From the NCBI GenBank assembly GCA_021372475.1, contig JAJFUJ010000068.1:1-43284 (forward strand): 43,284 nucleotides of DNA, in the 5' to 3' direction. Shown here in pieces: positions 18,771 through 34,127 of the stretch. The DNA is from Chloroflexota bacterium. Its GTDB lineage: Bacteria > Chloroflexota > Anaerolineae > UBA1429. The position numbers and the translations under genes are program-made. Under the pieces are notes generated by a model. The model was not told the DNA's origin. It worked only from the letters and a program-made list of their open reading frames with translations, and ran no database searches. How positions within the stretch are numbered: the stretch's first letter is position 1; every line of letters begins with the position of its first letter.

Positions 18771-19913
18771 TTACTTGGTTGCGGTAGGATAGGTCCACAA
18801 GGGAGTCCCCCCTATCTTGGTAACATCAAGGGCAACAATGGTGCCTGATGTAGTTCCCGCAAAAACCTGGTTATCAAGGACTGCAATTTTAGAAAGGATG
18901 CTTGCCTTATCTATAACGTACAATAGCTCAGCTCGGCCGTCAGCGAGTCCGATTCGGTAAATCTTGCCATCATTAGTGCCAATCACAAGGTAATCACCCG
19001 CTAATGACGGCCCGGCACGTGTCGCTCCATCTAGCTTTGCATCCCAGATAAGCGTGCCATCTTGAGGATTCAGCGCATGCACCTGGCCATCCAAACTACT
19101 TGCGTAAAGAACACCTTTGTCTAGAAGCACCTCACCCCAAACCCATTGGTCGAACTGTCGTTCCCAAACCAGCTCGCCAGTCGCGGCGCTCAAGGCATTC
19201 AGCTTGTTGGAGACCCCACCGACCAGAACCATATCACCGGCAAGGTATACGCCGCCGGGCGCGGCTGCTCCGAGGTCATACTTCCAAGCCAGTTCACCCG
19301 TCTGCCGCTCCAGAGCATAGATAAAATGATCCAGCGAAGCGACGTATACATGTTTTTCATCAACAACCGGAGCGCCCCAAATACCATGGGTGGTTACCAG
19401 CGGATTCCAGAGCAGCTCAGCGGATGTAGCAGTCGCTTTGACGGCATACACGCGTGAATCAGACGCACCAAAGTAGATAGTGCCATCGTATTCTGCTGGC
19501 CCGCCCACAATCGCGCCTTGAGCAATGTATTCCCAAGCTTTTTGGCCTGAGGTACGGTTAAACGCATACAGTTTATTGTCAAACGTCCCGACAACGACAA
19601 AATCATCGGTAAAAACGGGCAAACCGTAAACTGCATTCAATGCGGTATCCTGGCTAGTTTGCTTGGGTGCAAAGAGCGAACCCAAACCGCCGCTCGCGGC
19701 CTGTGCAACCGGGTATTTCCAAAGCTCGGTGCCGGAATCCGCTTTTAGCGCCAACACTGTGCCCGAAGCCAGCACGGTATAAACATTATCTCCGTTTACT
19801 GCAACAACAGTCCAGCCAGGATTTACAGTCCCCTGGCTAGTGCAGCCGGTTACTACCAGAACTGATAAAACAACGAGGACGAGTAACCGCCCTCCGGTAA
19901 TCATTCTTCTCAA
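18771..19913 (-). CDS. PQQ-repeat beta-propeller lipoprotein (BamB-like fold)
   Basis: Predicted surface lipoprotein of 380 residues. A twin-arginine-charged n-region and hydrophobic helix end in a lipobox VVTGC (Cys24). They are followed by about seven PQQ-type blades with repeats such as GTVLALKADSGTELWKYP, NKLYAFNRTSGQKAWEY and HFIYALERQTGELAWKY. The TTG at 19913 is chosen because AGGAGG sits exactly 7 nt upstream; the ATG at 19904 would be 16 nt away. It lies between yidD and yidC, where most genomes have no such gene. Helping envelope-protein assembly is a guess from context and from the BamB-like fold; no assay-level function can be named. Confidence 0.85.
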   Translation of the reverse strand: MRRMITGGRLLVLVVLSVLVVTGCTSQGTVNPGWTVVAVNGDNVYTVLASGTVLALKADSGTELWKYPVAQAASGGLGSLFAPKQTSQDTALNAVYGLPVFTDDFVVVGTFDNKLYAFNRTSGQKAWEYIAQGAIVGGPAEYDGTIYFGASDSRVYAVKATATSAELLWNPLVTTHGIWGAPVVDEKHVYVASLDHFIYALERQTGELAWKYDLGAAAPGGVYLAGDMVLVGGVSNKLNALSAATGELVWERQFDQWVWGEVLLDKGVLYASSLDGQVHALNPQDGTLIWDAKLDGATRAGPSLAGDYLVIGTNDGKIYRIGLADGRAELLYVIDKASILSKIAVLDNQVFAGTTSGTIVALDVTKIGGTPLWTYPTATK

Positions 19914-19954
19914 GCCCAAACCTCCTGGCAAGCTGGTAAATAAAGTAAACCCGA

Positions 19955-24278: not shown

Positions 24279-25793
24279 ATGAACGTGCTCAAGCTTGTTC
24301 GGGGAAATCGTTACGCTACCCTTAGCCTGACATTGCTTATCATAGCCATTTTAGGGCCTCTATTCCATTGGGCCGGATTATGGCTGAGAGGCCTGTCATT
24401 TTTTTATATCGATTTCCAAAAGCTTGTCGCAGCTTATATTTTTCTGGCAATCAGCGCTGGCTGTTCCTCATGGTTGATCCTAAATCCACCCAATCAATTG
24501 GCGCGTATTCTTGCTATTGCAGGTCTATTATTGAACATCACTTCCGTTGCCTATGCTGGTCGTCTATGGCGAACCGATTCACAACTCCTTACAAACGACA
24601 CGATATGGACCCCCTTTGGCGCTAATAAAATAGGTATCCTCATCGCGCCTGCCAATGATGGGGGGCAAGCCATCGCGGAGGCTCGTACTATTGAGGAGAC
24701 CATCACCGCGCTGAGCGAATCAACCGAGTTAGCTGCTCTTGTGGAAACCCGCCAGATTCCTCCTGTAAGCACGGTTGAAAACGCCAAGTATATAGCTCAG
24801 CGTATGCGGGCGCATATTATCGTGTGGGGTACTGCTGAGGGATCCGAGTTGGTCCATACTGAACACTATGTAACGATGATGGGGGCTGGTTCGGCTGCTG
24901 GCAGCTTGGATACAAGCGGCTTAATGCTACTATTATCTAGTATTTGTACATTAAATACTGCGGATAATCGATTGGCCAGCGAGAATCTTGTCCCACCGAC
25001 AGCCCGCGCGTTGCTGGCCCCTGTAAGCCTGGGATTTGCATCCTTAGCCGCGGATAAACCGGAGCTTGCGGCCGCATTTTTTAAGACCGCCCTCTCTGCG
25101 CCAAACCTTACGGATGCTACAACGCAGGCCATTCTGGTGCAGTATGGCCTTGCCTTGCTTCTCGCTGATAGACCGGATCTTGCTGAGGAGATAATTGCTC
25201 AGGCTCAATTATCCTCCCCTAGCGCATTAAGCCAGGTTGCGGAAGGCAATTTAGCCCTTTATCAAGGCAACCTAGATCGCGCAAATAGCGCATACCTACA
25301 GGCACGCGCACTTGACCCTCGCATAGCGCAAGCATACTGCGGTTTGGGCATTGTAGCGAGCGAACAAGCCAATTTAGGGCGAGCATCTTCTCTTTTTAGC
25401 CAGGCGCTCGCACTGGAGCCAGATTGCGGTTTGATTAAGCTATTGCAAGCTCATCTATCTGAATTACAAGGTGATAGCAATGCTGCTCAGGCAGCCTATG
25501 AGCAAGCTACAGAAAAGCTTTATCCCTTTGATTACCTGAAAAATGTTATCGCTCAACGACGTCAGGAACTTGCCGTATCAGCGCCTACACCTGTACCAAC
25601 GGCTACATTTGCACCGACACCATCTCCAATGCCAATCCCAGGTCAACGCTACCACACTGTGGCAAAAAATGAGACGCTGCGTCAGATTGCTGAGCTTTAT
25701 AACGTTTCGGAAGATGATATCATCAAGCTTAATCGGTTGGAAGATAGGAATGTGCTTTATATCGGTCAAGTCCTCATAATCCCTGAGGAATAG
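24279..25793 (+). CDS. membrane-anchored TPR protein with C-terminal LysM domain
   Basis: A 504-residue envelope protein of unknown function. Three predicted membrane helices lie at about 13-33, 47-68 and 73-93. Next is a soluble module (about 110-230) with an AKYIAQRMRAHIIVWG-type segment. TPR repeats span about 245-430 (PELAAAFFKTAL, DRANSAYLQARALDPRIAQAY, GRASSLFSQALALEPD). A Pro/Thr-rich linker and one LysM domain (about 458-504: YHTVAKNETLRQIAELYNV, IGQVLIIPEE) end the protein. With the N-terminus inside, the LysM would face outside and could bind peptidoglycan or another N-acetyl-sugar polymer. The ribosome-binding site is poor. The large repeat-protein gene starts 30 nt downstream, suggesting one transcript. 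Confidence 0.82.
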   Translation: MNVLKLVRGNRYATLSLTLLIIAILGPLFHWAGLWLRGLSFFYIDFQKLVAAYIFLAISAGCSSWLILNPPNQLARILAIAGLLLNITSVAYAGRLWRTDSQLLTNDTIWTPFGANKIGILIAPANDGGQAIAEARTIEETITALSESTELAALVETRQIPPVSTVENAKYIAQRMRAHIIVWGTAEGSELVHTEHYVTMMGAGSAAGSLDTSGLMLLLSSICTLNTADNRLASENLVPPTARALLAPVSLGFASLAADKPELAAAFFKTALSAPNLTDATTQAILVQYGLALLLADRPDLAEEIIAQAQLSSPSALSQVAEGNLALYQGNLDRANSAYLQARALDPRIAQAYCGLGIVASEQANLGRASSLFSQALALEPDCGLIKLLQAHLSELQGDSNAAQAAYEQATEKLYPFDYLKNVIAQRRQELAVSAPTPVPTATFAPTPSPMPIPGQRYHTVAKNETLRQIAELYNVSEDDIIKLNRLEDRNVLYIGQVLIIPEE

Positions 25794-25823: not shown

Positions 25824-28800
25824 GTGAATAAGACATTTATCTTCGGTACCTTTATGCGCCAAGCCCTGGTCGCTGGATGCGTTATTTTTGCGTTTCTTTT
25901 GCTTGGAACGACCATTGATGCCGCCGCTCCCAGTGTGAGCACTGCCCCCCTCCTCATCACCAATACCGCCAATCCCTTAGTTGCACCGGGGCTATCTCTC
26001 ACATCCGCCGACCAAGTGCGGATAAGCTGGATTGAAGATGGCTCTATCAAGGTTATCTCCCCCGGCGTGCGCTGGAACACCTCAGTAGCTCCAGATCAGG
26101 CAGCAAAATTGGAGAATACGTCGCTGGCATTTACGGCAGGTGATTACTTGGCCTGGAGTGCATCATCTCCGGGTACTCGCCTGATATATGCGCAACGGCT
26201 GGAGGAGCTCAATCCTTCCGCGCGCCTTTCCGCTCCAGCCGATGCTGTTTTCACAGTTGACCATTTTGGCACCATACACGCAGCCTGGGCTGAAGCAACC
26301 AAACTCTATTATGCCAACAGCCGTTCTGTAACTAGGACGTATGAGCTATCCGCGCCAGCCTCGGACTTGATAATAAGCGTAGATATCAGCGGGACTGCTT
26401 TTCTGGCATGGGGACAAGTTAACGTCACTCCGGAAAACAATGGTATCTATCTGCTGCAGGTTAAAGAGCTGGCAGCACCGACTCGCATCGCGGCTTCCGG
26501 AGTACATCCCCAGATACAGACAGGTGCGAAAATACATGCCGCCTTTGCCGTCAGTGACACCCTGCTCTATGTAAACAGCGACGATTGGCAACACACGTAC
26601 ACCGTTACCACTGGTATTGAGCAGGATGCACCGTTTTGTCTGGCGCTCGGAGAGGATGATACCGCTCATTTGGCCTGGTACCAGAATGACACTATCCAGG
26701 CTGCCTTCTCTACAGATTGGTCATTGACCAGGCAAAAGCTGGTTTCTGCTGAACATGTCAATCATTTGAAACTGGCTATAGATGGACGCGGTGAAGCTCA
26801 CTTTGCATATAGCATGTTGAATGCTAGCGGACAGGCCGATATCTATTACTTTTCTCCGCCAAGTACAATTCTCCAAGTTGCCCTCTCGCCAGAATTGGCG
26901 GGGGAATATATCACTGCTTCTACCCAGCTACATGCCGTGACCAATCTGGCAGACTCCGATGTGCTAAAGATGAGCTTTTACCTGACCATTGACACACCAG
27001 AGAGCACGAACACATATGTTCCCCTAGGAATAGATTCGGACGGCGGTGACGGCTGGAATGCTACTCTGCGCACACCAGGTATCACGCCCCAGCAGGTTCG
27101 CGCCTGCGTCTTGGCAACCGCAACTAGCGGAGCACAAGCAAGAGCCTGCAGCGGTGTGTTTACTCTGGTACCCCAGGATTGGCCCGATGTCTGGCTGGAT
27201 AGTTCTATAAACTTCGACGGAGAGCCGATTGTCTTTGCCTACATCACACCAAATGCAGCACAGTCGCAGATAGACGTTTACGCCCAGCCGGCAACTTGCC
27301 TGACGCCGGAATCATTATGCCCCGCCAACTCGCAGGTCAAGTACCTTGGTCGTTATACGCTTGCCCAGTCTGGCGGAGGACGTGTTACCAGGCAGCGTCT
27401 GGTTCTAAACACCAACATGCTTTCAGACGGGCTTTACTACCTCAGCGCAGCATTGGTCTCTGAGCAGGCAGTAACGAGCACGTTCGATACCCCAATTCGC
27501 GTGCACCACCTGAATCCGCCTAAGGTTGAGGTGTTGCCAACATCGTCGACTTACGCAGTCGGCGAAATGCTTAAAGTGCAGGCGAGGGTTAAAGAGGGAC
27601 AATCTTCTGTAACACACATTGACTATTACCTGGTTCATACTTATGAGCCAACTAATATCGATGACCTGGATACCCTCTCGCGAGGTGATATCTGGTTGGG
27701 AACCGCCAGACCACTCGACAACTGGAGCATTCGGGTGCCGGTGAACAGCAGTTGGCTCGGTGATTCGTGGCAGATCAAGGCAATCGCGTATGATGAAATG
27801 AGCCTTTATACAATCGCATATAGTGAGCATTCGCTGTCTATCGTGAATTCTGGCTACCCTCATCTTACTTTTATACAGCTCGAAGCCGATCAGACTTTGC
27901 GAGGGCAGGTAACGACCAGAGTAACGCCCAGCCTGGCTCTTTCTGACCAGGATTATATCAATCTATACATCTCCAAGGATTCGTCTAGCTGGACTGTATT
28001 GGGAGCCTTTACACAGAGCGGCGATGAGTGGACCTGCAAATGGAATACCCGTGCGTGGCCTAATGGTCACTATACCCTCATGGCTACTGTACATTTGGCG
28101 GATGCGTCATTCGGCAAGCCATCCCTGGTTGATATATATATCGACAATACTCCCCTTGGCTACACGTTCACATCACCGCTTGCCGGTGCAACTGTACATG
28201 GCGAAGTAACCCTGGACATTTCCTCGTCGCAATCCATATCGATGCCTTCAAACGTCCACTTTATTCTACAGGACAGTCAACGCGGCTATTATGATCTAGG
28301 AGAAGCCCCTAATCGCGATGGGCATTACAGCATTGTCTGGAATAGCCGCCTGGTGCTCGATGGTATATACACCATTACAGCTTCCATCACAGAAGCCGGT
28401 GGACGATATATCCAGCTAGAAAAGATGGTTCGCGTCAGCAACACGGCTCCCACAATTCATTTTATAGGCAATGATTTCACACGGCTTCACAATGGTTCCA
28501 TTCAAGTATGCTGGCAGGCATCGGGAACGGCCCAAACTACAGTCCGCCTGGAATACAGCCCGGATAATGGCGTCCGCTGGCTGCAATTAGCCGCTAATCT
28601 CCCGGCTTCCGGCTGTTATGACTGGGATTCTTCCACCACGCCAGACTCCAGCCAGGGACGTTTGCGGGCTATTGCTGCAAGCGGTGTCCTTGAGACCAAG
28701 GTCACTAGCAACGTGCTGCTTGTGAACAATGTGGCAGAGGCTCCGGTATTGACAGTGCTCGCTCCTGCGAATGAGACGATTCACGGACAAACAGTCCGGG

Positions 28801-31124
28801 TTGCGTGGCAAAGCTGGAATCCTGACGCTGAGAACCTAAAGATCGATATTGCCTATCGCGTACCGAACGGAGTATGGATCTCTTTGGGCAGCAATCTTGA
28901 GGCCAATGGCGAGTTTATCTGGGATGTTTCCGAGTTATCCAGGATGTCCTGCGAGCTCCGAATCACCGCCCGTGCAGCTTCGGGGCTGTCATCGACTAGC
29001 TATCGGGATATAGAGCTTATCCCTAGTGAGCCGCTTACAATTCGCTTATTTTCGCCAAACGGCGGTGAACAGCTAAGTGATGAGGCATTGATACTTTGGA
29101 ATATTCCTGCGGCCAAAGAAAAGCAGGCCCTTGTCGATGTATACGTTAGCGACAACGCAGGGCAGTCCTGGCTGCCTTTGGCAGAAGGGCTGCAGGATAC
29201 CAGTTACTATCAGTGGCAGCTTTCGTTTCTCCCTCCTGGAGACCAATACCGAGTCAAGGTTGTAGCGCGAACACTGTCGGCTCAAGCTGAAGCCGTCAGT
29301 GCCGCGACATTTACCATCGGGAATCCTCCTAAGCCTACATTAAGGCTTGTCAGGCCCAATTCTGGTAATGCCCTGTTTGGGTTGCAACGCGTCGAGTGGC
29401 TGGTGACATCCGGATCGGGGTGCGCTCGCACAGCCAGCCTAGAAATTCGCCCCCTTGGGCAGACTATCTGGGATCCGCTGGTGCAGGGGATCCCAGATGA
29501 TGGATTTTACATATGGAATACCAGCCTTTTACCTGACGGGTTATACGAGCTGCGACTTGTTATTACGGATAATACGGATGCGAATCTGGAGGCTCTAGTT
29601 AAGGTTGAACTCCTGAACCACGACAATCATCCTCCACAAGTGCGCTTGCTCTCCACAGGTCTAGTAGCTGGATCTAGTTTGCTGCCGATTCGCTGGGAAG
29701 CGCTAGATATAGACAATGACGCGTTAACTGCTACTATCGAGATATCCAGTGCGTTAACGAACGAGTGGACGGAAATTGCAAAAGTTGATGCGGCGAGGGG
29801 TGTATATTGGTGGCGGCCGGATTCGACCGCCCTTGATGGGCGCCTGCGCCTTGTTATCGCTGATGGGACGTCAGAAACATCCTCCGAAGTTGCCCTATCC
29901 GCCTATCAGTACGAGCCAACCCTTGCTTGGACGGATGAGGATGCTGCTCGCGAAACTGGACAGCTCAAGTGGGCCGCTCAAAACACCTTGGGTCAAAATC
30001 GAGCGGTTGACATCTACCTGAACAGCACAAACAACCTAAGCAGACGCAGTCTGGTGCAAGAGACAATGGGAACGTCCTATACTATCGATATGAAGACGCT
30101 CGAACCAGGTGTTCTCTACCTTGCACAGCTAGAAACAGTTACCGCACGAGCGCGAGAGATGCTGCCCGCGATAAGCTTGCTGGTCCCTCCGTTGCCATTC
30201 CAGGAACCCAAGCTACAGGTGCAGTTGCCTCAGACTCCCGTCACCTGGACGCAATCGCACGAGATCACCTGGGAGACCGATGACCCTCTCGGGCGCACGT
30301 TGTCTATTCAGATTTACTTGAGTGATAATGGTGGATCGAGCTGGGAAACCCTGTCAAGAGATGCCGCGACTGCCGGCTCCTATAGTCTGGATACCACCCA
30401 ATTCGCAAATGGGCTCTACCTTGTCAAGATAACAGCAGATAATAAGCAGGTAAGTACCAGCCGCATCAGCGCACCAATCTATATAAATAATCCTGGCAAT
30501 AACCGCCCGATAGTCTCGCTACTGATGCCATATGATTCGGTTTGGTCCGGGACTAAAACGCTGCGTTGGATAACCGCCCATAACGATAAGGACACTACGT
30601 TGGCCTCGCTGTCATACAGCACCGATGATGGTCGCTCATGGCAACCGATCGCGGTGGCGCTTCCCGACTCTGGCAGCTATGTGCTCAATACCAATATGCT
30701 GCCAAACGCAGCGCGGGTATGGTTGCGGGTACTAGTTACCGATGGGGAATATACCAACCAGGATGTAATTGATACGCCGATTCGTATCGCCAACTATGCA
30801 AATCCTGTAATACACCTCACGATACCCTCGCAGGATATAAATGATACGGAAGACCTTATTTTATCTTGGCAAGCAGTATCCGCACTTGCGCGACCCCTAG
30901 AAGTTACGCTCGATTATTCCACCAACGACGGCGCTAGCTGGACAGAGCTGGCAGGAGGATTATCTGCCAGCGGGACCTACCCGCTGAATAGCCAACTAAC
31001 GTCATCAAGCTCCCAGGTGCTTGTACGTGCGACTGCATCCACCAAGTGGGGCAAAGGCATCGATACACTAATGGTCGCGGTACCTTCTAGCTTGGATGCC
31101 GCTTTTACGCCGTTTGAACCATAA
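25824..31124 (+). CDS. giant secreted repeat protein (beta-propeller-like N-terminus plus Ig/FnIII-like repeats)
   Basis: A product of about 1766 residues with an N-terminal signal peptide (hydrophobic VAGCVIFAFLLLGTTIDAAA). GTG at 25824 or ATG at 25854 may be the start; neither has a good ribosome-binding site. Residues about 45-340 contain repeated G-x-x-H-x-A-W strands, as in GTIHAAWAE, DTAHLAWYQ and GEAHFAY, suggesting a beta-propeller. From about residue 710 the protein is a train of 100-residue modules, each with a core like Y-S-x-D-x-G-x-S-W-x-x-L and S-G-x-Y-x-W-N. There is no C-terminal membrane helix, sorting motif or dockerin visible. Likely an extracellular or cell-surface protein in adhesion, matrix or glycan binding; a specific function cannot be assigned. 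Confidence 0.85.
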   Translation: MNKTFIFGTFMRQALVAGCVIFAFLLLGTTIDAAAPSVSTAPLLITNTANPLVAPGLSLTSADQVRISWIEDGSIKVISPGVRWNTSVAPDQAAKLENTSLAFTAGDYLAWSASSPGTRLIYAQRLEELNPSARLSAPADAVFTVDHFGTIHAAWAEATKLYYANSRSVTRTYELSAPASDLIISVDISGTAFLAWGQVNVTPENNGIYLLQVKELAAPTRIAASGVHPQIQTGAKIHAAFAVSDTLLYVNSDDWQHTYTVTTGIEQDAPFCLALGEDDTAHLAWYQNDTIQAAFSTDWSLTRQKLVSAEHVNHLKLAIDGRGEAHFAYSMLNASGQADIYYFSPPSTILQVALSPELAGEYITASTQLHAVTNLADSDVLKMSFYLTIDTPESTNTYVPLGIDSDGGDGWNATLRTPGITPQQVRACVLATATSGAQARACSGVFTLVPQDWPDVWLDSSINFDGEPIVFAYITPNAAQSQIDVYAQPATCLTPESLCPANSQVKYLGRYTLAQSGGGRVTRQRLVLNTNMLSDGLYYLSAALVSEQAVTSTFDTPIRVHHLNPPKVEVLPTSSTYAVGEMLKVQARVKEGQSSVTHIDYYLVHTYEPTNIDDLDTLSRGDIWLGTARPLDNWSIRVPVNSSWLGDSWQIKAIAYDEMSLYTIAYSEHSLSIVNSGYPHLTFIQLEADQTLRGQVTTRVTPSLALSDQDYINLYISKDSSSWTVLGAFTQSGDEWTCKWNTRAWPNGHYTLMATVHLADASFGKPSLVDIYIDNTPLGYTFTSPLAGATVHGEVTLDISSSQSISMPSNVHFILQDSQRGYYDLGEAPNRDGHYSIVWNSRLVLDGIYTITASITEAGGRYIQLEKMVRVSNTAPTIHFIGNDFTRLHNGSIQVCWQASGTAQTTVRLEYSPDNGVRWLQLAANLPASGCYDWDSSTTPDSSQGRLRAIAASGVLETKVTSNVLLVNNVAEAPVLTVLAPANETIHGQTVRVAWQSWNPDAENLKIDIAYRVPNGVWISLGSNLEANGEFIWDVSELSRMSCELRITARAASGLSSTSYRDIELIPSEPLTIRLFSPNGGEQLSDEALILWNIPAAKEKQALVDVYVSDNAGQSWLPLAEGLQDTSYYQWQLSFLPPGDQYRVKVVARTLSAQAEAVSAATFTIGNPPKPTLRLVRPNSGNALFGLQRVEWLVTSGSGCARTASLEIRPLGQTIWDPLVQGIPDDGFYIWNTSLLPDGLYELRLVITDNTDANLEALVKVELLNHDNHPPQVRLLSTGLVAGSSLLPIRWEALDIDNDALTATIEISSALTNEWTEIAKVDAARGVYWWRPDSTALDGRLRLVIADGTSETSSEVALSAYQYEPTLAWTDEDAARETGQLKWAAQNTLGQNRAVDIYLNSTNNLSRRSLVQETMGTSYTIDMKTLEPGVLYLAQLETVTARAREMLPAISLLVPPLPFQEPKLQVQLPQTPVTWTQSHEITWETDDPLGRTLSIQIYLSDNGGSSWETLSRDAATAGSYSLDTTQFANGLYLVKITADNKQVSTSRISAPIYINNPGNNRPIVSLLMPYDSVWSGTKTLRWITAHNDKDTTLASLSYSTDDGRSWQPIAVALPDSGSYVLNTNMLPNAARVWLRVLVTDGEYTNQDVIDTPIRIANYANPVIHLTIPSQDINDTEDLILSWQAVSALARPLEVTLDYSTNDGASWTELAGGLSASGTYPLNSQLTSSSSQVLVRATASTKWGKGIDTLMVAVPSSLDAAFTPFEP
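27950..31070 (+). repeat. tandem protein repeats with a ~300-bp period
   Basis: The conserved core recurs at about 28541, 28849, 29131, 29440, 29737, 30007, 30307, 30610 and 30910, spacings of 270-309 bp. Two more divergent copies are at about 27958 and 28253. The best copies read LDYSTNDGASWTELAGGL, LSYSTDDGRSWQPIAVAL and IYLSDNGGSSWETLS. DNA identity between copies is low by eye, so this is an old protein repeat and not a recent DNA duplication. Confidence 0.8.
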
Positions 31125-31172: not shown

Positions 31173-32381
31173 TCAACTACGCTTGGCAACCAGATGCTTG
31201 GATAATCTGGCATAACGCTTGAGCGGACCACCGATGAGCGGCCGTGCATAACGTATAAACTCTTCCGTCACACCGTTGCCGTGTGAGTTGATATACTCCA
31301 TCGGAACGACATGTTCTTTATTGGCCACCTGGGCTAACGGCGCCAGGCCGTATTCGATATGGTATACTTCGCTAGGTTGGCGAAGAATCGTAACCATCTG
31401 CCCCGTTTTGCCCTCCGCTGCAGCGCGAACTGCCAATCTGCCAACCTGATATGCCTCTTCCCGGTCGATTGGCGATTGCAGGGAAGCGAATGAGCGCTGA
31501 AGATAACCGGGTTTATCGTAACGCGTGCGCAGCTTGAGGCGGTCTTTGATCGTCTGGTCGAGAAATTCTACCACGCCGCCCTTTAGGATGTGCCCGAAGG
31601 CATCCACATCCCCGCGGCCGGAGCCTAAATCCTCGCCACTTTCGTCCTTCGCACCTTCTGAGACGGCTACTACACAGTAGCCTAAACGATGATAGACTTC
31701 CTCGACATCGCTGACGATCTGCTCGATTGAAATGCCCCTTTCCGGAAGGTAAATGAGGTGAGGAGGATCATCCGGCGTTTCCTTGGCCAACGCTGTGGAT
31801 GCAGTGAGCCAACCAGCATTGCGGCCCATTATCTCCATAAACTTCACCGGGCTGCTATCGCCCATCGCCAAGGTATCATAACCGGTATCGCGAATTGCGG
31901 TGGCAACAAAACGCGCGGCGCTGCCAAAGCCTGGACAGTGATCCGTCTCTGCCAAATCGTTATCGACTGTCTTGGGTACACCAATCGCATGCATCTCGTA
32001 GCCTTTGGAAAGGGCCAACTGAGCGATTTTATTGGTGGTATCCATCGAATCATTGCCACCAATGTAGAAAAAGTAACGCACGTTGTAGGCAATGAACACC
32101 TCAAGCAAGCGCTCATAATCCGTATCTTTTACCTTGTAGCGCACGGTCCCCAGCGCAGAGGCCGGCGTGTCACGCAGCGTTTCGAGGGTAGCGGGCGTTT
32201 CCTGGCGCAAATCCATCATCTCTTCATGTAGCAAGCCCTGAATCCCATGCACCATCCCATAAATGCCTTCGATCTGCGGATGAGCCATAGCCTCTTGGAT
32301 AACGCCGACCAAACTGTTATTGATTACCGCGGTGGGGCCGCCTGATTGCCCAACCACCAAGTTGCCACGAGTAATAGCCAT
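31173..32381 (-). CDS. pfp: 6-phosphofructokinase, pyrophosphate-dependent type
   Basis: Phosphorylates fructose-6-phosphate in glycolysis, and reversibly if PPi-dependent. The 402 residues start with the phosphate-binding loop NLVVGQSGGPTAVINNS and include PKTVDNDLAETDH (catalytic TVDND), FMEIMGRNAGWLTA and YLPERG. Where ATP enzymes have GGDGS and a PxTIDND with Gly, this protein has GGNDS and PK before TVDND. That Asp-plus-Lys pair is the established mark of PPi-dependent PFKs. GGGAGGG lies about 5 nt before the ATG. It is separated from the upstream glycosyltransferase by 62 nt. Assignment as a PFK is firm; the phosphoryl donor is inferred from motifs. Confidence 0.9.
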   Translation of the reverse strand: MAITRGNLVVGQSGGPTAVINNSLVGVIQEAMAHPQIEGIYGMVHGIQGLLHEEMMDLRQETPATLETLRDTPASALGTVRYKVKDTDYERLLEVFIAYNVRYFFYIGGNDSMDTTNKIAQLALSKGYEMHAIGVPKTVDNDLAETDHCPGFGSAARFVATAIRDTGYDTLAMGDSSPVKFMEIMGRNAGWLTASTALAKETPDDPPHLIYLPERGISIEQIVSDVEEVYHRLGYCVVAVSEGAKDESGEDLGSGRGDVDAFGHILKGGVVEFLDQTIKDRLKLRTRYDKPGYLQRSFASLQSPIDREEAYQVGRLAVRAAAEGKTGQMVTILRQPSEVYHIEYGLAPLAQVANKEHVVPMEYINSHGNGVTEEFIRYARPLIGGPLKRYARLSKHLVAKRS

Positions 32382-32443: not shown

Positions 32444-34060
32444 TCACCCCGGCTGGCGTTTGAGTATCTGATAGTACGGTCCAAAGATCCGGTCAACTTT
32501 ATAATTCTGGTTTAGATAGATATCCACAATCTTGATCCCGGACGATTTACCAGAGTCATTGGGCTCGACAACGTCTTCAAACATCGAAAAACGCACAATT
32601 ACCGGAGTTTGCAGGCGTTCCAGGTCGCTAACGATTTCTTCCTGTACTAATTGGGTTGTTGCGACACCCGGATGCAGCTCGTTATAGCGTGTGGCGCACT
32701 TACGTCCGGCTAAAAAGTAGAACAAGGCATCGTTGACGAAAATACGGTCATGGCGTGAGGTAGCCTCATAGATGGGTGTATCTGCAGGAACAATCTCACG
32801 GATATACTTGATCGCTGCGGCCTGGTTGGGTTCAACAGGCATACCCCATGCAGCCGGTATTTGATGGCCAGTGTTGGGTGTATTAGCCCAGATACCGCGT
32901 TCAAGGAGAGTTACCCGTTCATCGATTATCTGCTGACCAAACGGCGCCAATAGCAATAGTGCAACGCATAGAGTAAGTATGCCCTTTACTTTCCCGCTCT
33001 TCCAGGCCAACCCAAGCAGAGCCATACACAGGATGAAGCTAATCACCAACAGCCCTACAAGATGAATGAGGTCAGCGCGGATGCGCGACTGGTTAAGCGA
33101 TACAGCCGCAAAGAGCAGCAAGTAAGCAAAACCACTTAAACGGATAGCTTCGGACGGAGAAAGCTTGCGCCAGCGCAAACGGACGAGGCGTATGATGAGA
33201 TATAATGCTGTAAGCCCTAGAATCAGGTAGGGGAAATAATAAGGCCAGTTTTCTACGACTTGTGGCAGCAGTTTAGGATACGGCAGTGTCCGCACGAGGG
33301 GAAAGGTTGTGATGGGGAATACGATCAGATCTTCCCGTAGCGTTGTCGCTGGCACAGCAGCCAGCAGCAGCGCTGCTGCCGGGGCAACTACAATAGACGC
33401 GCCCAGTAGAAAGGGGGTTCCCAGTCGCAGCATCGCATGGCGACTGCGCTCTCCTCTGAGTGAAATACAGCCGGTAAGTGCCAACGGCAAAAAGGCCACA
33501 ACCTCGGCTACCAAAGCATAGGCCCCAAAATCATGTCTGAATAGGGTGGCCGTTCCTAACGCTAAACCGGCAAGAAACGTCATCCTGCGAGGATGGTTGG
33601 AATCAGCGAGATGTAGCAGGGCCAGAAAGCTGGATAATACCAGGAGCATTGCGATATAAACTGGGTAACCGTAAAACTCATAGAATCCGAGCCAAAGGGT
33701 AACGAGCAGCCACGTAATCACACCCATACCGCGCGAACCAAGCCGCTGCACCAGCGCCATACTGACTACGGCAACCGCCGCGCGGAAAAGAGTATCCCAT
33801 ACGCGCTCAACTAAAATCGTTGAGCCAAAAATCTTGAATAAGCCTGCCAGCGCATAGTACTGCCCGGGGCTGTAAACCGTCCAGAAATCGCGATACGGTA
33901 CATCGCCCCACAAGACGCGCTGGGCGCCGTAAACAATGAGGCCTTCATCATAAACATTAAGAGCTCGCGTGATCCCCAGGCCGATGTAGATCACTGAAAG
34001 ACCATAGAGGAGTATGTAGAGGCCAGTATTTGCCCAAGGTGCCCGCTTGGAGGTGTTCAT
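32444..34060 (-). CDS. GT39/ArnT-like membrane glycosyltransferase
   Basis: Polytopic membrane protein of 538 residues in the dolichyl/undecaprenyl-phosphate-sugar-dependent GT-C superfamily. After the first membrane helix (GLYILLYGLSVIYIGLGI) comes the acidic loop motif NVYDEGLIVYGAQ and then DVPYRDFWTVYSPGQYYALA. The Asp-Glu pair is the usual catalytic site of the GT39/GT83 group. About ten more hydrophobic segments follow, then a soluble C-terminal region of about 130 residues. ATG at 34060 has TAGGAG 5 nt upstream. Acceptor and sugar are unknown; protein or lipid glycosylation at the outer face of the membrane is the family role. Confidence 0.8.
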   Translation of the reverse strand: MNTSKRAPWANTGLYILLYGLSVIYIGLGITRALNVYDEGLIVYGAQRVLWGDVPYRDFWTVYSPGQYYALAGLFKIFGSTILVERVWDTLFRAAVAVVSMALVQRLGSRGMGVITWLLVTLWLGFYEFYGYPVYIAMLLVLSSFLALLHLADSNHPRRMTFLAGLALGTATLFRHDFGAYALVAEVVAFLPLALTGCISLRGERSRHAMLRLGTPFLLGASIVVAPAAALLLAAVPATTLREDLIVFPITTFPLVRTLPYPKLLPQVVENWPYYFPYLILGLTALYLIIRLVRLRWRKLSPSEAIRLSGFAYLLLFAAVSLNQSRIRADLIHLVGLLVISFILCMALLGLAWKSGKVKGILTLCVALLLLAPFGQQIIDERVTLLERGIWANTPNTGHQIPAAWGMPVEPNQAAAIKYIREIVPADTPIYEATSRHDRIFVNDALFYFLAGRKCATRYNELHPGVATTQLVQEEIVSDLERLQTPVIVRFSMFEDVVEPNDSGKSSGIKIVDIYLNQNYKVDRIFGPYYQILKRQPG

Positions 34061-34079
34061 ATTAGCTCCTACCGGGGAT

Positions 34080-34127
34080 AAAAAAGGCTCTCTCACAAGA
34101 CACCGCTGCGGCGTCGTGATAGAGAGC
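34080..34127 (-). terminator. intrinsic terminator of tRNA-Gly
   Basis: On the minus strand GCTCTCT...AGAGAGC arms (34121-34127 and 34087-34093) enclose a longer imperfect stem with an apex CGCCGC/GCGGTG. The stem is followed directly by six T residues (34085-34080). It ends the tRNA transcript before the glycosyltransferase start, which must therefore use read-through or another promoter. Confidence 0.85.

Follow-up and report, generated by a model that had tools for sequence, protein, structure and literature searches.

A family-wide giant protein of Anaerolineae with a predicted N-terminal propeller and fourteen Ig-like domains, and its TPR-LysM partner

A 43,284-nucleotide stretch of DNA from a Chloroflexota bacterium of the class Anaerolineae (this whole stretch is called the window below) encodes a giant secreted protein, in which a signal peptide is followed by a predicted seven-bladed beta-propeller and by an array of 14 contiguous Ig-like domains of about 100 residues each (residues 346-1756). 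The gene is found throughout the family of the bacterium, together with a partner gene for a protein with TPR and LysM regions. We hypothesize that the giant protein is a cell-envelope rod of fixed length that displays the propeller and probably relies on the partner to stay at the wall, a reading to which we give about an even chance. The two genes, their parts, and the gene that follows are:

24279..25793, + strand: upstream partner gene, 504 residues (Pfam and orthologues; transmembrane segments by eye)
25236..25523, + strand: TPR region of the partner, residues 320-415, PF07719 (Pfam)
25653..25784, + strand: LysM of the partner, residues 459-502, 48.6 bits (Pfam)
25824..31124, + strand: giant secreted protein, 1766 residues, GTG start, 30 bp past the stop of the partner
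25824..25922, + strand: signal peptide, about residues 1-33, with an A-x-A-type end (by eye, hydropathy, orthologue alignment)
25950..26852, + strand: predicted seven-bladed beta-propeller, about residues 43-343 (structure model and structural matches)
26859..28442, + strand: Ig-like domains 1-5, residues 346-873, Big_7-like, without Asp-box in 11 of 11 orthologues (profiles, motif scan)
28443..31091, + strand: Ig-like domains 6-14, residues 874-1756, Asp-box type, Kre9_KNH-related (profiles, motif scan, model)
31092..31121, + strand: short C-terminal tail, residues 1757-1766, without hydrophobic stretch and, by eye, without sorting motif
31173..32381, - strand: phosphofructokinase gene, convergent with the giant gene (Pfam, locus comparison)

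A secreted protein with a regular array of domains

The open reading frame has the length given in the earlier note, and the secretion claimed there agrees with a signal peptide recognized by eye and by hydropathy; a hydropathy scan of the whole protein gave this signal peptide as its single hydrophobic stretch. Orthologues were compared in an alignment from 11 of the 15 family genomes, G003, G007, G008, and G014 being left out as fragmentary or split, and alignments of five of these 11 orthologues were used for the structure models. An N-terminal hydrophobic stretch above threshold is present in nine of the 11 (the exceptions are L024, of which the start is missing, and L026), and the A-x-A-type ends are similar in most; L022 has a marginal internal stretch. 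Starts were assigned mechanically, as the first start after a stop, and the frames of L023, L024, and L025 run off the end of a contig. All 11 proteins are acidic (pI 4.6-5.2).

The regular repeat of about 100 residues that had been noticed is real. Its boundaries stay in a self dot plot, in which 317 windows of 25 residues reached a score of 35 (BLOSUM62), as compared with 0-7 in 10 shuffled copies, and the strongest diagonals lie near multiples of 98-100 residues. A profile of domains 6-14 that was built without the window protein, from the ten remaining orthologues, recovered eight of the nine domains 6-14 of the window protein with i-E values from 4e-14 to 1e-27. Domain 11 was weak (0.021), domain 4 was matched at 4.5e-07 and domain 5 at just 0.53, while the best value on 20 shuffled copies was 0.14. 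The domain starts found by profile are residues 347, 452, 563, 676, 776, 875, 973, 1070, 1170, 1270, 1364, 1461, 1561, and 1660, with one spurious 3-bit match inside the propeller. The eleven cores that the earlier note had placed at 27950-31070 correspond to domains 4-14, with a spacing of 282-300 bp. These eleven were right; three preceding repeats and the conserved partner gene had been missed, the array beginning three domains before the reported stretch, at residue 346 (nucleotide 26859).

Distribution and conservation of the array

The giant protein was found in 14 of the 15 family genomes by BLAST and in all 15 by profile (the order-level and family-level samples consist of the same 15 genomes). 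The additional genome, G003, has only a frame of 667 residues, cut short by the end of the contig. In G007, G008, G011, and G014, the copy is divided between contigs or open reading frames. To the extent that the fragmented assemblies allow one to tell, there is one gene per genome; G002 contains an extra short match (9.8e-05). In G014 (L032:6704-12096), the gene consists of two open reading frames with a 4-base overlap, covering query residues 54-713 and 770-1746, which is either genuine or the result of a frameshift in the assembly.

Outside the family, where two candidate stretches per genome were scored, 26 of the 283 other genomes of the class gave matches at E<=1e-20, all of them partial, with no more than 326 of the 1808 model positions covered; G131 had the best value (1.1e-44). 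In a phylum sample of 301 genomes, there were two matches at E<=1e-30, both inside the family. A profile search of contigs in named records yielded five loci among the matches listed (at least 593 pattern matches), and four relatives in named records, again among the matches listed, come from Chloroflexi or Anaerolineae metagenome genomes. One of the five loci, L039, is from Bacteroidia and matched just query residues 893-1521 (E 2e-14); the alignments made afterwards do not include it. The same contigs searched with the single window protein gave 11 pattern matches, none of which was confirmed.

The aligned orthologues are 1706-1854 residues long and share 24-34% identity, and the number, order, and individuality of the domains are kept. 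Nine of them have 14 domains and two have 13, namely L022, in which domain 11 is reduced, and L025, which is cut by the contig end. Individuality was assessed with domain slices taken from one global alignment, the best-match test being free to pick another domain; pairs that lacked a domain longer than 70 residues were not counted. In 1115 of 1500 comparisons between species, a domain was matched best by the domain of the same number, against a chance expectation of about 1 in 14. The weakest were domains 11 (33/90), 14 (43/90), 10 (57/110), and 2 (64/110). Orthologous domain pairs had a mean score of 137, as compared with 56 for domains within one protein (highest, 235). From these same-number best matches and the higher scores of orthologous pairs, the 14-domain array looks old and not recently expanded, as judged by sequence comparison.

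Two kinds of domain and the Asp-box

Profiles made separately from domains 1-5 and from domains 6-14 each scored best on their own kind, with partial cross-matching: window domains 8, 9, and 12 matched the 1-5 profile (3.9e-07 to 7.5e-05) and domain 4 matched the 6-14 profile (1.4e-07). The two kinds are related, because the best stretch of L026 for Big_7, the Pfam family that the first five domains resemble, falls in its Asp-box part.

The resemblance to Asp-box repeats of sialidases that had been remarked upon holds for most domains, though not for all, as seen in a scan for the Asp-box-like motif S/T-x-D/N-x-G-x-x-W/F/Y. This motif occurs five times in the window protein, in five of its nine domains of the Asp-box type (6-14), and three to seven times per protein in the 11 orthologues; shuffled proteins contained 0.15 on average and 3 at most. 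It was not found in domains 1-5 of the 11 orthologues, nor in domains 7 and 9 of any of them. It is present in domain 6 in 10/11, domain 8 in 11/11, domain 10 in 8/11, domain 11 in 4/11, domain 12 in 10/11, domain 13 in 6/11, and domain 14 in 8/10. The position-specific pattern of Asp-boxes along the array is therefore itself conserved.

The repeats belong to known Ig-like families

It had been suggested that the repeat might define a new family. This was not borne out, because Pfam Big_7 and Kre9_KNH are matched well above their cut-offs in orthologues. Big_7 (PF17957) was matched by 10 of the 11 orthologues (best 1.7e-32; 112.3 bits in L023), and the window protein reached 27.2 bits for a cut-off of 24.1, with its best stretch in domain 5. 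Kre9_KNH (PF10342) was matched by six of the 11, with a best value of 2e-14. Among five orthologues scored in bits, all exceeded the Big_7 cut-off and three that of Kre9_KNH (53.2, 41.2, and 47.4 bits; cut-off 24.6). The window protein itself gave no Kre9_KNH match at E<=10 in Pfam; its scores narrowly exceed the curated cut-offs of Big_13, Big_3_3, and Big_7. A Pfam search with single repeats, the check that had been proposed for classifying them, did reveal a family, since Kre9_KNH was the commonest match (7 of 45 repeats at E<=0.01), but the first member matched nothing. For fn3 (PF00041; cut-off 25), the window protein scored 10.1 bits and a single orthologue, L023, was just above (25.6). 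NCBIfam gave only matches below cut-off for the giant protein. On these profile matches, the repeats are best described as diverged representatives of Ig-like domain families that are already known, and many of the repeats have an Asp-box hairpin.

Reelin_subrepeat-B scored 41.7 bits in the window protein (cut-off 27) through short local matches, the best one covering 31 of 127 positions around an Asp-box. A reelin repeat was rejected, as the full-length succession of subrepeat A, EGF, and subrepeat B is not found and no EGF family is listed. Also rejected was an Asp-box beta-propeller of the sialidase or Vps10 type, the repeats being sandwiches of about 100 residues. The window protein remained below cut-off for Sortilin-Vps10 (20.3; cut-off 33) and for BNR (17.5; cut-off 27), and two orthologues were over the BNR cut-off (35.4 and 37.1).

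A sequence search of solved structures with the whole window protein gave no match at E<=1. Repeat profiles gave local Asp-box matches to reelin (E 3.6e-06) and to sialidases, as well as a match to Clostridium thermocellum CbhA in the region of domains 2-3 (E 1.8e-04).

Predicted fold of the repeats

An AlphaFold2 model of domains 12-13, based on an alignment of 40 adjacent pairs from five orthologues, had a mean pLDDT of 95.4 and a pTM of 0.76 and was all beta except for short turns. Its top VIA row was the FnIII-like tandem of CbhA (3pdd; Z 9.8, rmsd 10.9, 173 residues aligned), and Ig and FnIII tandems are among the best rows; 54 of 996 chains reached Z 8, and rows above Z 8.8 are tied. Each domain is thus predicted to be a beta-sandwich, as the earlier note had supposed in comparing the repeats with Ig-like or FnIII rods; this applies to the fold and not to family membership. 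The 3pdd match likewise speaks for the modelled fold of each domain and not for the inter-domain angle. Foldseek TM-scores of the two-domain model were 0.27-0.50 among the best 50 rows listed, low values being expected if this angle differs. Given these scores and the pTM, the inter-domain geometry of the model is tentative, and the rod shape of the array is inferred.

The N-terminal propeller

The N-terminal part was modelled as residues 34-458 with an alignment of five sequences (mean pLDDT 79.7, a moderate value). The 28 strands ahead of the first Ig sandwich can be read as seven 4-stranded blades, the first two of which are partly below pLDDT 60, and propeller-type structural rows span model residues 5-317. 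The model thus supports the propeller-like N-terminus that had been proposed. The best structural row was CylK (7ron; Z 24.2, rmsd 3.4, 305 residues aligned). The Photorhabdus lectins PLL, PLL2, and PHL and Chromobacterium CV39L were matched at Z 20.4-21.4, and WD40 and other non-lectin propellers, tied with these lectins, at Z 19.8-21.0. Since lectins, WD40, and other propellers score alike, the fold is on firmer ground than the function.

A TPR-LysM partner and the question of attachment

The partner consists of three N-terminal hydrophobic, transmembrane-like segments, a soluble domain, the TPR region, a proline-rich linker, and a C-terminal LysM. By the positive-inside rule, what follows the transmembrane-like segments is placed outside the membrane. 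The partner was found full-length in 13 of the 15 family genomes, with one partial match at E<=1e-30 among the 283 other genomes of the class; G001 and G007 contain no full-length partner but LysM-like partial matches, and the contig of G001 begins within the giant gene. In eight of the 13 (the window, G002, G003, G004, G005, G010, G012, and G013), the partner immediately precedes the giant gene; in five (G006, G008, G009, G011, and G014), it is on another contig and is followed by other genes. The nearest genes with a family match on either side of the pair are on the opposite strand, so that the two probably form a unit of their own. Being family-wide, and not found full-length elsewhere in the sampled class, the pair is a promising candidate for an envelope part peculiar to this lineage.

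No C-terminal hydrophobic stretch was found in the 11 orthologues (L025 is cut at a contig end). Sortase anchoring was rejected, as neither such a stretch nor, by eye, a sorting motif in the last 25 residues is present; a sortase is encoded in 11 of the 15 family genomes. An SLH-anchored S-layer protein was also rejected, since SLH (PF00395) was found neither in the giant protein nor in any of the 15 family genomes, the control being positive in 4 of 14. Because of the gene linkage and the shared distribution, we infer that the protein is attached through the LysM partner.

A possible envelope rod and its alternatives

If the giant protein is indeed a wall-held rod, Sec export and cleavage of the signal peptide would leave the propeller at the N-terminal end of a stalk of 14 Ig-like domains. 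An Ig-like domain is about 4 nm long, and the extended stalk would measure roughly 55-60 nm. The propeller would be the likely binding or contact head, and the TPR-LysM membrane protein would probably hold or place the giant protein at the peptidoglycan. The Asp-box hairpins in most of the last nine domains may stiffen the rod, because in other Ig-like or jelly-roll domains the Asp-box often supports contacts between domains. Such hairpins are documented in Ig-like domains, and those of reelin may support its rod-like form, according to an excerpt of PMC2716378. The large surface fibre imagined in the earlier note is a plausible but conjectural reading.

We considered the possibility that the protein is instead a secreted carbohydrate-binding adhesin or scavenger, released or loosely held, with a lectin propeller, an Ig spacer, and no particular link to the TPR-LysM protein. 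This is unlikely but deserves real weight. It would account for the resemblance of the propeller model to the four bacterial lectins, and it agrees with the lack of an anchor in the giant protein itself and with the five genomes in which the partner is unlinked. Yet the non-lectin propellers score as well, Pfam gave no lectin match for the N-terminal part of the five sequences, and the partner has the same family-only distribution as the giant protein. Adhesins with a variable number of repeats are known, and the fixed number and order of the domains are unlike theirs.

More speculatively, and with a rather low probability in our judgment, the 14-domain rod and its partner would act not as an adhesin but as a ruler or strut that sets the distance or contact from the wall to an outer layer or to a neighboring cell. 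If true, this would make the pair a family-defining envelope machine; the number of beads being fixed, the hypothesis is directly testable.

It is improbable that the protein serves as the chief building block of an S-layer-like coat made from linear Ig-like domains. Its presence in all 15 family genomes, as one gene each within the limits of the assemblies, its acidity, length, and divergence, and the lack of SLH domains in these genomes, hence of a competing SLH-type coat, would all be compatible with this role, and the S-layer protein 8cka is at rank 45 among the structural matches of the repeats (Z 8.1), but Z values near 8 are common. Furthermore, codon adaptation to 22 ribosomal-protein genes ranked the giant gene at percentile 10 and its partner at percentile 2 among 107 open reading frames (from nine of twelve fetched stretches plus the window, three short ones being left out, with the ribosomal stretch outside the 107). 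Like the lack of SLH domains in the family, such low adaptation is an argument against a highly abundant S-layer protein, which would be expected near the top, though it is not decisive, the codon bias being weak (0.61-0.76 for the ribosomal genes themselves, as compared with a mean of 0.63) and the frame set mechanical.

A secreted enzyme, whose catalytic propeller (a lyase or glycosidase) would be positioned on its substrate by the Ig domains, is very improbable: the top row of CylK, the matches to rhamnose-glucuronate lyase 7esk (Z 21.1) and glycoside hydrolases 5mum and 5mvh (Z 20.3), and the sugar-kinase and nucleotidyl-transferase genes that the window and G002 have upstream would fit, but the lone enzyme-family match in Pfam and NCBIfam is a NAD-binding one (0.038) in one of five N-terminal sequences, the residues that never vary in the propeller are chiefly W, G, A, L, and P and include a single S and a single D, and the sugar genes are not seen at the other 15 loci, many of which are short.

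Relation to known systems

Analogies to a wall-held rod are offered by giant single-chain filaments of tandem Ig-like beads. GhlA of Litorilinea aerophila, also from Chloroflexota, is a polar grappling-hook filament of 6596 residues with 49 Ig-like DUF11 domains, and both it and GhpA of Aureispira share this construction with the giant protein (PMC13319060, excerpt). GhlA differs by its DUF11 domains, its larger size, and the lack of a signal peptide, and the excerpt mentions no propeller (PMC13319060). A DUF11 grappling-hook protein was rejected for the giant protein, which gave no DUF11 match at E<=10 (GhlA being compared by its description). By analogy, the giant protein may work on the same bead-string principle.

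The individual modules have other relatives. Big_7 is a single domain type and says nothing of a 14-domain array with a propeller. Kre9_KNH is shared by the six orthologues mentioned above, but most of the repeats here carry an Asp-box, unlike Kre9_KNH. The Asp-box Ig-like or jelly-roll domains of reelin subrepeats, chitobiase, and sulfite oxidase contain the same Asp-box hairpin in a beta-sandwich (PMC2716378, excerpt); the matches to reelin are local around the hairpin, and no EGF modules are listed for the giant protein. The FnIII-like modules of CbhA come from a cellulase of GH family 9 and have 11% identity in the structural alignment to two repeats. In the integrin alpha headpiece, too, Ig-like domains come after a propeller (6om1_G; Z 20.2, 392 residues, rmsd 7.7), a likeness of architecture only, with 6% identity and no evidence of common origin.

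Among the papers listed on the surface, envelope, S-layer, or LysM/TPR proteins of Anaerolineae and Chloroflexota, none deals with the pair in its title and the start of its abstract; for bacterial Kre9 Ig-like domains, titles and abstract beginnings pointed only to a fungal study. On these listings, neither the giant protein nor the partner that probably binds the wall seems to have been described before. The giant protein is apparently a new, lineage-specific example of the multi-Ig surface proteins of bacteria. It consists of domain types that are already known, and its fixed design and its partner add to its interest. The nature of the Chloroflexota envelope has long been debated (PMC7332563, excerpt).

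Gene neighborhood

The phosphofructokinase gene adjoins the giant gene, in convergent orientation, in G001 and G002 as well, and is one open reading frame away in G007; all are different genera. An open reading frame of 550 residues at 32444-34096 of the window has no Pfam match at E<=0.01, and related pieces occupy the same place in L022 (G002). In two genomes (L026:8416-9801 and L030:12647-13870), an MFS transporter gene follows the giant gene on the same strand. The unlinked partners of G008 and G011 are both followed by one kind of aldo/keto reductase with a 4Fe-4S domain (L109:5770-6885 and L111:3366-4469). A promoter and terminator scan was uninformative (11 and 6 sites, as compared with 9.2 and 6.1 expected). 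Farther upstream, at 18771-19931, the window encodes a separate PQQ/BamB-like propeller protein (PQQ_2, 164 bits) near GHMP kinase and nucleotidyl transferase genes.
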